A stretch of 57,312 bases of DNA from Candidatus Nitrosopumilus sp. (GCA_029864335.1 JAOTTS010000014.1:1-57312); one strand, 5' to 3'. Counted from the stretch's first letter, positions 5,010 to 8,859 are shown. Numbers and translations are program-made. Notes: generated from the letters alone by a model not told the origin.

Positions 5010-5192
5010 ATGGCAACACACGGTTCACTTACCAAAGCAGGTAAAGTAAGAGGACAAACTCCTAAAGTAGAAGGAAGAAAAATCGTAGGCGATAGTTCCA
5101 GTGTTGCAAACAAAGGTAATTTCAAAAAGAGATTCGTTCTAGGACGATTTCCTGGTCAAAATAAGCCTGGACAAAGAAGAAAGAGACGATAG
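5010..5192 (+). CDS. rps30e: 30S ribosomal protein eS30
   Basis: 60-aa small-subunit protein. The N-terminal HGSLTKAGKVRGQTPKVE is the signature of eS30, and the C-terminus is basic (GQNKPGQRRKRR). In eukaryotes it is made as a fusion with a ubiquitin-like domain; here it stands alone, as in other archaea. A weak TATA-like ATAAATT lies 22-28 nt upstream. Confidence 0.93.
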   Translation: MATHGSLTKAGKVRGQTPKVEGRKIVGDSSSVANKGNFKKRFVLGRFPGQNKPGQRRKRR

Positions 5193-5321
5193 TCAATTCT
5201 TGTTAAAATTTTCTCATTTTACGATCTATTTCTAAAACAGGTTCCCTTAACATTTTCCACATCATCAATGGCTTTAATCAAATCAAGCATTGATCTGCTG
5301 AATTTATAATTTGTTTCTAAC

Positions 5322-5344
5322 GGTTCTGTAAAGTTGGTGGCTCA
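5322..5344 (+). repeat. left terminal inverted repeat
   Basis: 23 bp starting GGTTCTGTAAAGTTGG and ending GGCTCA, identical to the reverse complement of 7677-7699. Confidence 0.9.
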
Positions 5345-5361
5345 CGGTTCTAAATCTTCTT

Positions 5362-5383
5362 CCTGTCAAAAATAGGCTCATTT
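5362..5383 (+). repeat. left subterminal inverted block
   Basis: CCTGTCAAAAATAGG followed by CTCATTT. It matches the reverse complement of 7638-7659 at 21 of 22 positions and sits exactly 17 bp inside the terminal repeat, as at the other end. CCTGT and ATAGG can pair as a small hairpin with a G-U wobble. Possibly a transposase or accessory binding site. Confidence 0.75.
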
Positions 5384-5401
5384 TTGCTATTCAAAAATGA
5401 A

Positions 5402-5581
5402 TCACCTGAGACGTAATATCTCAGGATAGTATTGCTCACCATTGATGTTTCCTGTTGCTCTGCGATGATAGTAACCGTATTCCTTGTCTCTAAACAGTCC
5501 GTCTATGAATTTCTCAACCGAAACACTTAGATCTTGGTTTGATGCAATATCCATAGTTGGTTTGTATTTTTTCGAATGCAT
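5402..5581 (-). CDS. hypothetical 59-aa ORF within the element
   Basis: ATG-started ORF reading MHSKKYKPTMDIASNQDLSV onward and ending YYPEILRLR. It lies between the transposase and the left end, on the same strand as the transposase and 42 bp downstream of it. Soluble, mixed charge, rich in Tyr, no known domain recognised. It could be an IS accessory protein or chance coding space. Confidence 0.4.
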   Translation of the reverse strand: MHSKKYKPTMDIASNQDLSVSVEKFIDGLFRDKEYGYYHRRATGNINGEQYYPEILRLR

Positions 5582-5623
5582 GGTAACTTTGAGAAAGTCT
5601 AACCAACTATTAACTTCTAATTG

Positions 5624-6755
5624 TCAACTTGATCGCACCCAGACTTTAGCGTTTTGAATTATTGTCTTCCATTTGTCGTTTCCTTCAACTATAATTCCAC
5701 AGGCTTCAGCAGGTGTTGTGTTTAGTGTCATGTGTTCTCGTATGTAGTTGTGATAGATTTGATAACCGTCAAAGAATATCGAGTCCTGTTTCTTGATTCC
5801 TCTCATCACTTTTTCCCTGTCCCTGAACTCACCGTTGAATCTTTCCTGTTGGTTGTTGTTCATGTCACCTTTTAGGTGAATGTGTCTTATGTGAACTGAT
5901 GTGTTTCTGTTGTTTGTCCTAAATTCTTTCTTATGTGCAATGTTGTAACTTCCCAGACCGTCAGTAATCATTACTTTTGGAATTTTGTTTGTAGCTGTTT
6001 TAGCTTCCTTGTATAGTCCTGTTGCATCATGTCCTTCCTTTCTGTCAGACACTTCCTTTGCTATCCAGTAGCGAGTCTCATCATCACACAGTGCAAAGAG
6101 ATACTTCATGTTTCCCTTTACCTTGGTGTAGACCTCATCTGCTCTCCATGTATCGCTAACTTGTGGTGTGATTTTGTCCAGATGCTCTTTCATTATTGCA
6201 ATGTATTTCCTTATCCAGTTGTGGATAGTCTGATGTGATACTGTAATTCCTTGTAATTTAATGAATTTCTGTACGCTTCTCAGGGATTCGCCTGTATAGT
6301 TGCATGGCTGATGTGATGATTTTAGGACTGGCTTTCATTCCCTCAAATCCTAAATTGAAGCTAAACCATTTTGTGCAGTCATTGCAGAAATATCTTTGAA
6401 TGGAATAGTTCTTGTTCTTTCTAATACCGTGCTTTACAAAATTTTCAGAAGTGCATTTAGGACATACTGTAACGTTTAGTTCAGGTATTGTTACCTTATT
6501 ACTTTCTCGTACCTCATTTCTGTATTTTATTGAAAACTCTACGCCATGAATGTGTTTACAGCATATTTTTCGGAATGTATGGTCTGGACAGGTACACACA
6601 AAGCCTGACTCTGTGCCTATGACATCATACTTTCTCTTGGAAGTTTGGGATTTTACGGTGTAATGATGGTCATTTAGGCGTAAAATCTGAACATTGGGAT
6701 TCTCAAATATCTTCTTTCCAGCGTCAATCCTGTTACATTTATTATCTGATTTCAT
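5624..6755 (-). pseudogene. IS6/IS240-type DDE transposase, frameshifted
   Basis: Two ORFs give one transposase. The upstream part (6755 to 6258, 165 aa) has a SWIM zinc finger (CTCPDHTFRKICCKHIHG) and a zinc ribbon (CPKC then CNDC). The downstream part carries the catalytic core: WRADEVYTKVKG (first Asp), MITDGLGSY (second Asp) and QERFNGEFRDREKVMRG (Glu). Between them the reading shifts at about 6292-6300. Reading the other frame gives YTGESLRSVQKFIKLQGI, the expected HTH continuing straight into the second ORF. Loss of one 5-bp CTATA copy, or gain of one base, would explain it. Programmed frameshifting is possible but I see no slippery-site-plus-structure support. Confidence 0.8.
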
Positions 6756-6758
6756 TAG

Positions 6759-6810
6759 GTATCTATTGATATATTATATCAATACTATTATAAAGATACC
6801 TATTGATATC
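6759..6810. promoter_or_regulatory. operator-like palindrome and repeats between transposase and RHH gene
   Basis: TTGATATATTATATCAA (6766-6782) is a perfect 17-bp palindrome with 8-bp arms. CTATTGATAT occurs at 6763-6772 and again at 6800-6809. The block covers the TATA regions of both divergent genes (TTATAAAG at 6788-6795 for the plus-strand gene). This is the geometry expected for an RHH autorepressor controlling itself and the transposase. Binding is inferred. Confidence 0.6.
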
Positions 6811-6819
6811 ACATAGTAT

Positions 6820-6954
6820 ATGGCTATGAAGCGAATATTGGTATCCGTACCTGTTGAGATGGAAAAAGCTTTGGAAAAGGAACGAAAAGAGAGAATGTTA
6901 GAGACCGTACCTGAGACTATCAGAGTTATTCTTAGTGAGTATCTAAGGAAGTAA
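6820..6954 (+). CDS. ribbon-helix-helix (CopG/Arc-like) regulator, 44 aa
   Basis: Encodes a 44-aa peptide beginning MAMKRILVSVPVEMEKALEK and ending IRVILSEYLRK. This is the RHH pattern: a short beta strand (RILVSVP), helix 1 (EMEKALEKERKER) and helix 2 (PETIRVILSEYL). Such proteins dimerise and bind palindromic operators. It is divergent from the transposase across a palindrome and overlaps the end of the convergent membrane-protein gene by 23 bp. Likely controls element expression. A second ATG lies two codons in. Confidence 0.7.
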   Translation: MAMKRILVSVPVEMEKALEKERKERMLETVPETIRVILSEYLRK

Positions 6955-7597
6955 ATATTACATCATCTTTGGTTATTGGGACAGGTTGTGTCTTGATTTT
7001 GATTAGAAAATGTTTTTCCTCAACTTTGGAATTGTAGCGTATGTGAAATACTACTCGTAAGTTATAGTACCTGTTACCTTTTTTATCATCAATAAGAATA
7101 TCTTCGTTAGAGTAACCTTCATCCCATTCTTTTTTAATTGTGGACTGCATGCCAAATGACATGCCATCCAACCCTACATAGGATTCCAAGGGGAGTTCTG
7201 CATACCCTTCTGAGTATTTTGTAAACAAATCCATGGTTCTTCTTTTCTCATTACCATTAATCCAATCAAGTGGAAACATACATTTAGGAAGTGGTATTTT
7301 ATGGAATGGTTTTTCATTCATTCCAGTATATCTTGCAGAGATGGAGCAGTCCTTTGCCAAGGATTTCCCAGTGTTTTTTACAGTTATAGAAAACCGAATG
7401 TTAATCTTGTCTTTGGTTGTGTCAATGTGAGTGTTAGGTATGATTTTGATTTTCGGTCTCTGAATCCATTTCCATAATGGGTGTGCCGTCATTTCATACA
7501 CAGTGAGCACCAAAATCGATACTGTTACTGCAAAAAGTGTCCACGTGTTTTCGTTGAAAGTTTTTAGAATTTGCTCTATCTCTATACCCTCTATCAT
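6932..7597 (-). CDS. membrane-anchored hypothetical cargo protein
   Basis: 221 aa. One N-terminal membrane segment at about residues 17-35 (TLFAVTVSILVLTVYEM) is followed by a soluble, beta-rich domain starting IKIIPNTHIDTT. A stretch with SITVKNTGKSLAKDCSI resembles a CARDB/Ig-like fold, which would place the domain outside or on the membrane face. No catalytic motif is seen. It lies inside the IS6-like element, between the RHH gene and the right end, so it looks like cargo. Function unknown. Confidence 0.65.
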   Translation of the reverse strand: MIEGIEIEQILKTFNENTWTLFAVTVSILVLTVYEMTAHPLWKWIQRPKIKIIPNTHIDTTKDKINIRFSITVKNTGKSLAKDCSISARYTGMNEKPFHKIPLPKCMFPLDWINGNEKRRTMDLFTKYSEGYAELPLESYVGLDGMSFGMQSTIKKEWDEGYSNEDILIDDKKGNRYYNLRVVFHIRYNSKVEEKHFLIKIKTQPVPITKDDVIFTSLDTH

Positions 7598-7637
7598 AAC
7601 TCATTAATTCTGATAAAAGTGTAGTATTATACTGATC

Positions 7638-7659
7638 AAATGAGCCTGTTTTTGACAGG
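7638..7659 (-). repeat. right subterminal inverted block
   Basis: On the minus strand CCTGTCAAAAACAGG then CTCATTT. It is itself a hairpin (CCTGT/ACAGG, five pairs). Counterpart of 5362-5383. Confidence 0.75.
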
Positions 7660-7676
7660 GTAAAGAAAGTCACCTA

Positions 7677-7699
7677 TGAGCCACCAACTTTACAGAACC
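7677..7699 (-). repeat. right terminal inverted repeat
   Basis: 23 bp, exact reverse complement of 5322-5344. Its outer edge is about 12 bp before the radA TATA box. Confidence 0.9.
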
Positions 7700-7711
7700 C
7701 TAAAACAACAC

Positions 7712-7720
7712 TTTTATAAA
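7712..7720 (+). promoter_or_regulatory. radA TATA box
   Basis: TTTTATAAA about 24-30 nt before the radA ATG. The mobile element ends 12 bp upstream, so any native control site further upstream has been separated. Confidence 0.6.
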
Positions 7721-7743: not shown

Positions 7744-8859
7744 ATGGTAGAAGATTTAAGATTAGATAGTTTAGAGGGCGTAGGTCCTGTAACTACAAGA
7801 AAATTATCCGATGCAGGTGTCCACAACGTCATGGATCTCATCGTCAGAGGCCCTGTAGAAATTGCAGACATAACTGGAATGGAAAAGGACACTGCTGAAA
7901 AAATTGTCAATAAAGCCCGACAACATCTTGTTGATGGTGGATTAATTGCCAGTCATTTTACAAGTGCAACTGAAATTTATAAACATCGACAAAGTATTGG
8001 TAAAATTACAACTGGTACAAACTGTCTTGATACATTATTTGATGGTGGTATTGAGACTCAGGCCTTGACAGAAGTCTATGGTGAATTTGGTTGTGGTAAA
8101 ACACAATTTGCACATACAATGTCTGTGATGGTTCAAAAAACCAAAGAAGAAGGTGGCCTTGAAGGAAGTGTTTTGTACATTGATACTGAAAATACTTTCA
8201 GACCTGAAAGAATTGTATCTATTGCAAAAGCTCATGACATGGATCCAGAAAAAGTTCTAGATAACATCATAGTTGCACGTGCATATAACAGCTCACACCA
8301 AATATTAATTTTAGAAGAAGCCGGTCCGGTAATTGAAGAAAACAATGTTAAACTAATTGTTGCAGATTCTGCAGTTGGATTGTTCCGTGCTGAATATCTT
8401 GGAAGAGGAACATTGTCAGTTAGACAACAAAAACTAAATCACTTTGTTCATTTGCTGTCTAGAATTGCAGAAACATACAACTGTGCTGCAATTGCAACCA
8501 ACCAAGTTATGGCATCACCTGATGTCTTCTTTGGAGATCCAACACGACCAATTGGTGGAAACGTAGTTGCACATACAAGTACCTATAGAATCTACTTTAA
8601 GAAATCAGGTAAGAAACGAATTGCTAGAATGGTGGATAGTCCTCACCACCCTGAAGAGGAAGTAATCTTTGCTCTAGGCGAAGCAGGTGTCATAGATCCT
8701 GAAGACGCTGATAAAAAGATAAAAAAGACTACCAAAAAAGCAACCAAAGCAGCAAAAGAGCCTGAGGTAGAAACTACAATAGAAGCACCTGAGGTAGAGA
8801 CTATTGTGGAATCCACAATAGATGATGAACCAAAAGATTCAGAACCAATTGAAGAGTAA
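7744..8859 (+). CDS. radA: DNA repair and recombination protein RadA
   Basis: Archaeal RecA/Rad51 recombinase that forms filaments on single-stranded DNA and drives strand exchange. N-terminal helix-hairpin-helix domain (LEGVGPVTTRKL, residues 10-21), polymerisation region near HFTSATEIYKHR, Walker A GEFGCGKTQ (113-121), Walker B LIVADS (204-209), L1/L2 loops (LGRGTLSVRQQKLNHF and PTRPIGGNVVAHTSTYRI). The core ends near residue 320 at GEAGVIDPEDA. About 50 extra residues follow: a Lys/Ala-rich stretch, then an acidic tail with PEVET repeated. The tail is not part of the usual fold. Confidence 0.96.
   Translation: MVEDLRLDSLEGVGPVTTRKLSDAGVHNVMDLIVRGPVEIADITGMEKDTAEKIVNKARQHLVDGGLIASHFTSATEIYKHRQSIGKITTGTNCLDTLFDGGIETQALTEVYGEFGCGKTQFAHTMSVMVQKTKEEGGLEGSVLYIDTENTFRPERIVSIAKAHDMDPEKVLDNIIVARAYNSSHQILILEEAGPVIEENNVKLIVADSAVGLFRAEYLGRGTLSVRQQKLNHFVHLLSRIAETYNCAAIATNQVMASPDVFFGDPTRPIGGNVVAHTSTYRIYFKKSGKKRIARMVDSPHHPEEEVIFALGEAGVIDPEDADKKIKKTTKKATKAAKEPEVETTIEAPEVETIVESTIDDEPKDSEPIEE

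Follow-up and report, generated by a model that had tools for sequence, protein, structure and literature searches.

Described members of the IS6 family are elements of ~0.8 kb with ends of 14-20 bp and one gene, which encodes a transposase of 210-250 amino acids, and they are associated with 8 bp duplications (PMC7986276). ISDsp3 of Dehalococcoides is the one passenger-carrying member named, and the long clostridial forms of clades h and i have a zinc finger (PMC7986276). The archaeal members that have been described have transposases of 211-231 amino acids and single repeats of ~14-18 bp (PMC6807381). In a survey from 2019, thaumarchaeal mobile elements are described as IS families, and composite transposons with passengers are stated not to have been detected in archaea (PMC6563490). 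The element analysed here lies at positions 5322-7699 of a 57,312 nt stretch of DNA from Candidatus Nitrosopumilus sp. (GCA_029864335.1, JAOTTS010000014.1:1-57312), referred to below as the window. A sequence-only reading had proposed that it may be an undescribed IS6 subgroup with its own control and cargo module. The core of this proposal stands, in that there is an IS6-related group with doubled ends, a candidate regulator of the ribbon-helix-helix (RHH) type and cargo; a role for a hairpin at the ends, a 59-residue ORF as a gene and RHH and membrane genes as constant contents are not supported. In other respects the proposal was too modest, as the broken transposase, the promoter targeting, the radA hotspot and the range of the cargo go beyond it. 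Judged from sequence, the window element is very probably an inactivated member of a family of cargo transposons, related to IS6, that is spread across archaea. Its features and those of its surroundings are collected in Table 1.

Table 1. Features of the window element and of the radA site in which it lies (Tnp, transposase).
Feature	Position	Strand	Basis or remark
rpS30e, host gene upstream of the insertion site	5010-5192	+	Pfam Ribosomal_S30, 5e-10
CTAAAACA, outer copy of the 8 bp target at the radA site	5232-5239	+	Same 8-mer as at 7700-7707
82 bp remnant, starting GGTTCCCTTAAC (resembles an element tip)	5240-5321		Probably left by an earlier occupant, judged by its position right after the target 8-mer
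Left outer end, 23 bp	5322-5344	+	23 of 23 identical to the right end, inverted
Left inner block (outer motif repeated in direct orientation)	5362-5383	+	
59-residue ORF, probably not a gene	5402-5581	-	No relative in the fetched loci
Transposase pseudogene (SWIM, zinc ribbon, HTH, IS240-type DDE)	5624-6755	-	Pfam and NCBIfam on the C-terminal frame; single intact ORF in relatives
5 bp deletion breaking the transposase frame	6294-6299	-	5 nt gap relative to L047, L048, L049 and L007
Tnp-RHH intergenic repeats, candidate RHH operator	6757-6812		13-mers TATCTATTGATAT (6760) and TACCTATTGATAT (6797) around a TATA-like sequence
RHH regulator, 44 residues	6820-6954	+	Pfam RHH_1 0.011 (weak, below cut-off); 66-91% identical in 17 relatives
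Passenger, 221 residues, with one TM segment near the N-terminus; overlaps RHH tail to tail	6932-7597	-	ORF and hydropathy
Right inner block	7638-7659	-	
Right outer end, 23 bp	7677-7699	-	23 of 23 identical to the left end, inverted
CTAAAACA, inner copy of the 8 bp target	7700-7707	+	
TTTATA, radA TATA box, 5 nt after the target 8-mer	7713-7718	+	Sequence; same geometry family-wide
radA, host gene with the targeted promoter	7744-8859	+	Pfam Rad51, 2.6e-88

The window copy has the perfect inverted ends that had been described for it (23 of 23 positions match); behind each, at a distance of exactly 17 bp, comes a second inverted block (21 of 22 match). The inverted repeats score 37, and the best pairs that arise by chance in this locus reach ~14; by their length and symmetry the repeats are far beyond chance. 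The outer motif reads TGTNAA-N4-6-GGCTCA and the inner block repeats it in direct orientation. Within the window copy alone the likeness between outer and inner parts is not significant, as 471 of 2000 and 192 of 2000 shuffles were equally good, and the repeat becomes evident only across the family, not from the window copy by itself. The small hairpin noticed earlier at the inner block (CCTGTCAAAAACAGG) does exist as a palindrome, but it is private to the window copy and the relatives keep the direct repeat; a hairpin function for this block was therefore rejected. No 8 bp duplication abuts the left end, where the sequence is TTTCTAAC, compared with CTAAAACA at the right. The partner of the latter is found 82 bp outward of the left end, and the 82 bp remnant between is probably left over from an earlier occupant of the radA site; it has no strong similarity to the other loci compared.

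The transposase of the window copy is split between two frames, one at 6258-6755 and the other with its end at 5624. Four relatives (L047, L048, L049 and L007) have five extra nucleotides at ~6294-6299 and an uninterrupted ORF of 370-380 amino acids. A programmed frameshift was considered and rejected, since the relatives have one ORF and the window copy has a 5 bp deletion. Because its transposase can no longer be made whole, the window copy would be immobile unless helped by another element. The C-terminal frame matches Pfam DDE_Tnp_IS240 (4.7e-15) and the NCBIfam IS6 model (65 bits). Intact relatives score 103.8-131.3 bits with the NCBIfam model, which has a cut-off of 125 bits, and their domain order is a SWIM-type motif (CxC...CKH), a four-cysteine zinc ribbon, an HTH and the D-D-E domain. 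Across the transposases tested the DDE_Tnp_IS240 domain is found at 5e-15 to 5e-16, with Asp208, Asp267 and Glu306 invariant. Bacterial plasmid IS6 proteins are 24-33% identical to the family transposase and none covers 80% of the protein; a Cetobacterium plasmid match is 27% identical. The transposase sequence had no match in the PDB, and a fold search with the AlphaFold2 model of the protein (pLDDT 80) returned only the general RNase H fold of integrases and transposases. The scan of archaeal and bacterial genomes gave 286 transposase relatives, the best 80 of which are mostly from Nitrososphaeria, Bathyarchaeota, Methanoperedens and Thermoplasmata; the few relatives that stand under bacterial or Asgard record titles may be binning errors. 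The genome of the window itself has a further related transposase locus (L002; G000:C49:77575-77753), with an N-terminal half that is ~51% identical.

Elements were delimited in these relatives by inverted-repeat searches around the transposases together with a perfect 8 bp duplication at the tips; most of the genomes compared are MAGs. This yielded 61 distinct elements with perfect 8 bp target duplications exactly at the doubled tips, enclosing the whole unit, and element lengths across the family range from 2.0 to 5.7 kb. In each end of the 61 elements one motif is present twice, in direct orientation. Its sequence varies by subgroup (GGCTCA, GGGACA, CGGGGTTT, CGTCGG and others), and the outer and inner copies co-vary. 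Local alignment of the outer and inner parts within an end gives a score of 9.3, against 5.4 for a shuffled inner part and 6.3 for the inner parts of other elements. The end's own pair lies above the shuffled mean in 117 of 122 ends, so that ends without the second block are at most uncommon, and it lies above all 50 shuffles in 58 ends. The outer-inner spacing peaks at 26-28 bp and at 35-38 bp, about one helical turn apart. We infer that the transposase binds both motif copies of an end cooperatively and on one face of the helix; the spacing between the two bound motifs could then differ by one helical turn.

The RHH gene is inside the window element, as had been proposed, with a weak score to Pfam RHH_1. 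An RHH gene divergent from the transposase was found at 34 loci across the order, in five families. It is better conserved than the transposase; in L055, for example, the RHH is 91% identical to that of the window and the C-terminal transposase is 36% identical. On the transposase tree the RHH is found in deep branches and is missing from one clade of 15 and from several single rows. Across the family the gap between the two genes contains tandem TATCTATTGGTAT-like repeats flanking a TATA-like sequence. The 13-mer repeat of the window copy is confined, within the element, to positions 6760 and 6797, and shuffled elements gave none. The RHH protein would bind these repeats and repress both the transposase and itself. 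Relatives of the RHH (56-64% identical) are also found apart from this transposase, in L112 (4334-4450), L113, L114, L118, L120 and L122-L124; the one in L112 adjoins a large protein with multiple TM segments that looks like a conjugation channel.

The membrane-protein ORF reported inside the window element was also confirmed. It has no convincing homologue in 330 genomes; L107 shows weak resemblance only (E = 0.02). A passenger of L195 was rejected as a homologue, as its 27% identity came from a forced multiple alignment and was gone in pairwise comparison. The structure model of the window passenger is unusable (pLDDT 35), and a defence or exclusion role at the membrane is a guess to which we would give a little less than an even chance. 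The 59-residue ORF had been listed among the genes of the element; it has no relative in any fetched locus, including the 79% identical element L047, and is probably not a gene. Within 120 bp of the RHH stop, 24 of the 33 loci with room have a convergent ORF of at least 100 residues, and 17 of the 24 overlap the RHH gene by 22 nt or less or sit within 8 nt of it; a few of those lying farther off may not be genuine. This tail-to-tail partner varies and is most often a membrane protein, like that of the window.

Collected from the 61 elements plus eight additional loci, the passenger ORFs of at least 110 residues number 134 and fall into 115 similarity clusters. Recognisable passengers include restriction-modification proteins (N6-methylase and specificity genes in L171, L221, L255 and L247), GmrSD-HNH (L219), AAA_15/OLD-type ATPases (L061 and L109), ParB-DUF488 (L248), and AbiV-type HEPN and proteasome-like proteins. 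Five proteins of passenger set A3 match the proteasome/Ntn-hydrolase family. Passengers of these kinds may pay their way, often as anti-virus genes, and the membrane protein of the window could be one such passenger. The cargo is not constant. Two elements with doubled ends, L065 (1970 bp) and one of those in L166 (2338 bp), carry the transposase and no other ORF of at least 90 residues, copies of a kind that the sequence-only reading had named as contrary evidence, and there is the clade that lacks the RHH; the RHH and membrane genes are thus not always inside.

The window element is inserted in the gap between rpS30e and radA, and the promoter layout beside it is CTAAAACA-acact-TTTATAA-radA. 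The radA flank was recovered from 71 of the 79 genomes of the genus. Vacant radA sites in relatives read ACGATCATTTT-CTAAAACA-ATACTCTTATAAAG (also given with ATAC as the last part). An element tip is present at exactly the same base of the site in 13 of the 30 closest genomes and the alignment runs into such a tip in five more, giving ~18 occupied sites among the 71. The occupants of the site, including those in other genera of the family, belong to differing transposase subgroups, lie in both orientations and carry different passengers, and they occur as single elements, as solo ends that have decayed, or in tandem. Occupancy of the radA site changes at least nine times on the transposase tree, and the insertions are therefore independent. 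In L166 (G239:C1:1779000-1789000) three family elements stand in tandem upstream of radA, with neighbours separated by the 8 bp target TCGAAACA. The radA sites of L140, L149, L146 and L160 (G186, G338, G253 and G327, respectively) hold remnants, single or doubled ends with no transposase, which look as if decay or deletion had left one end. The RHH-less elements at the radA sites of L133, L018 and L022 have a GTACCG-like sequence near one (left) end, resembling a palindrome in the radA promoter.

The same geometry is found at other sites. Among 80 de-duplicated flanks, with radA sites excluded, 26 have a TATA motif starting 5-6 nt from the duplication, where 1.6 are expected and the maximum in 2000 shuffles was 10; nine of the 26 cases come from the 26 flanks outside Nitrososphaeria. 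One common target 8-mer for all sites was ruled out, as the duplications differ; the TATA spacing is the shared feature. Insertions lie about 5-6 bp upstream of archaeal TATA boxes, and some promoters, that of radA among them, have been hit repeatedly. A gene start lies 22-70 nt downstream of 12 of 25 targeted TATA motifs, compared with 104 of 849 control intergenic TATA-like motifs (p = 2e-5). For half of the targeted motifs no gene is evident within 70 nt, and no tRNA genes were found as targets at the sites without a protein gene. The genes behind targeted TATA boxes include radA, tfb (twice), sufB (twice), a thermosome gene, alaS and a threonine-synthase-like gene. The positions between the target-site duplication (TSD) and the TATA motif are A-rich, like a BRE. 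At many sites a further element has its tip on the opposite side, which fits a target that is not destroyed when an element inserts.

These observations suggest that the promoter-bound TBP/TFB complex guides the choice of target. Elements would land just outside the TBP/TFB footprint, with the promoter still working, and the target would remain available after insertion, so that elements could accumulate in arrays. In its full form, in which the family uses the TBP/TFB initiation complex as a landing beacon, in a manner Ty3-like but independently evolved, and at this safe site builds up arrays of swappable, often anti-viral passengers upstream of housekeeping promoters, we consider this reading slightly likelier to be right than wrong. 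A short A+T motif at a fixed distance could also be read by a DNA-binding domain alone, and the transposase itself may thus recognize TATA-like or bendable DNA, with no part played by TBP and TFB; the half of the targeted sites without an evident gene within 70 nt also fits this. Such direct reading is a real possibility that we nevertheless doubt, as gene starts follow targeted TATA motifs four times more often than other intergenic ones (12 of 25 against 104 of 849), the identified targets are well known housekeeping promoters (RadA, TFB, SufB, thermosome and AlaRS) and the stretch between TSD and TATA is A-rich and BRE-like. It is very improbable that the radA hotspot and the TATA spacing reflect survivorship in harmless gaps or one inherited ancestral insertion. 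All known copies do come from viable genomes, in which intergenic sites are expected to survive, but survival is unable to fix a spacing to 1-2 nt, the radA sites of close relatives include vacant ones, and the elements at this site belong to different subgroups, vary in orientation, cargo and number, and are scattered over the transposase tree.

Two further explanations concern the content of the element. The RHH and membrane proteins might form an addiction (toxin-antitoxin) module that holds the element in place; RHH proteins are common antitoxins and the 3' ends of the two genes overlap. We regard this as unlikely: the genes are convergent and form no operon, the RHH is nearly constant while its partner switches to unrelated proteins, and the repeat motifs sit between the RHH and the transposase, away from the promoter of the passenger. 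We give hardly any credence to an ordinary IS6 element in which the RHH and membrane genes are chance neighbours caught between two ends, a reading that the family as a whole already contradicts. Transposase-only copies are known (L065 and one L166 element) and the transposases score near the NCBIfam IS6 cut-off, but the order of transposase, RHH and tail-to-tail passenger recurs in many species, the 8 bp duplications of relatives bracket the entire unit, and neither doubled ends nor a SWIM domain are reported for described archaeal IS6 members (PMC6807381).

With IS6/IS26 the family shares the DDE_Tnp_IS240 core, GGTTCTGT-like tips and the 8 bp target duplication (in the 61 family elements; in the window copy no duplication abuts the left end). 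It differs in its transposase of 370-380 residues with a SWIM and zinc-ribbon N-terminus, in having two direct motif copies per end instead of short single repeats, in its length of 2.0-5.7 kb with RHH and passengers, in its promoter targeting, and in that most of the delimited elements are still bordered by their duplication. The clostridial clades h and i likewise have a zinc-finger extension N-terminal to the HTH-DDE part (PMC7986276), represented in the family by a four-cysteine zinc ribbon plus a SWIM-type motif; these clades are bacterial, and a SWIM domain, cargo and doubled ends are not reported for them in PMC7986276. Doubled ends and promoter targeting set the family apart from the described IS6 members. 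Tn7-like ends have several transposase-binding repeats each, and the Ty3 targeting factor contains TBP and a relative of TFIIB. The family resembles Tn7-like elements in its repeated, putatively transposase-binding end motifs. It also shares with them safe-site targeting and defence-rich cargo (PMC8649781); Tn7-like elements have the multi-protein TnsA/TnsB/TnsC machinery and a 5 bp duplication, whereas the family has a single DDE gene and 8 bp. For Ty3, integration is confined to a narrow stretch upstream of genes transcribed by Pol III (PMC8632968), and insertion at a fixed distance or in a narrow window just upstream of a promoter is common to both, with a contact to TBP/TFB presumed here. 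Unlike the family, which consists of DNA transposons at archaeal TBP/TFB promoters, Ty3 is a retrotransposon that uses its integrase at Pol III genes.

No published account of the family was found in the freely accessible literature, and these IS6-related, promoter-targeting archaeal cargo transposons are apparently undescribed. They are transposons with diverse passengers, a kind that according to the 2019 survey had not been detected in archaea (PMC6563490), and are spread over Nitrososphaeria, Bathyarchaeota, Methanoperedens, Thermoplasmata and one Asgard record. The family offers a testable case of transcription-machinery-guided integration outside eukaryotes and a route to archaeal defence genes, by looking between doubled ends; it might also serve to insert genes safely into archaeal genomes. 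Other targets recur besides radA. The second is the promoter of a 128-residue conserved protein (MPKAGFKSITVSETVYDKF...) with no Pfam match (L063, L195, L208 and L028, the last compared by its promoter sequence alone). At the third (L062, L209, L213 and L216) the flanks are similar, TTTTTAA-atatacataaatacc, and the gene behind looks like one for a secreted or membrane protein.
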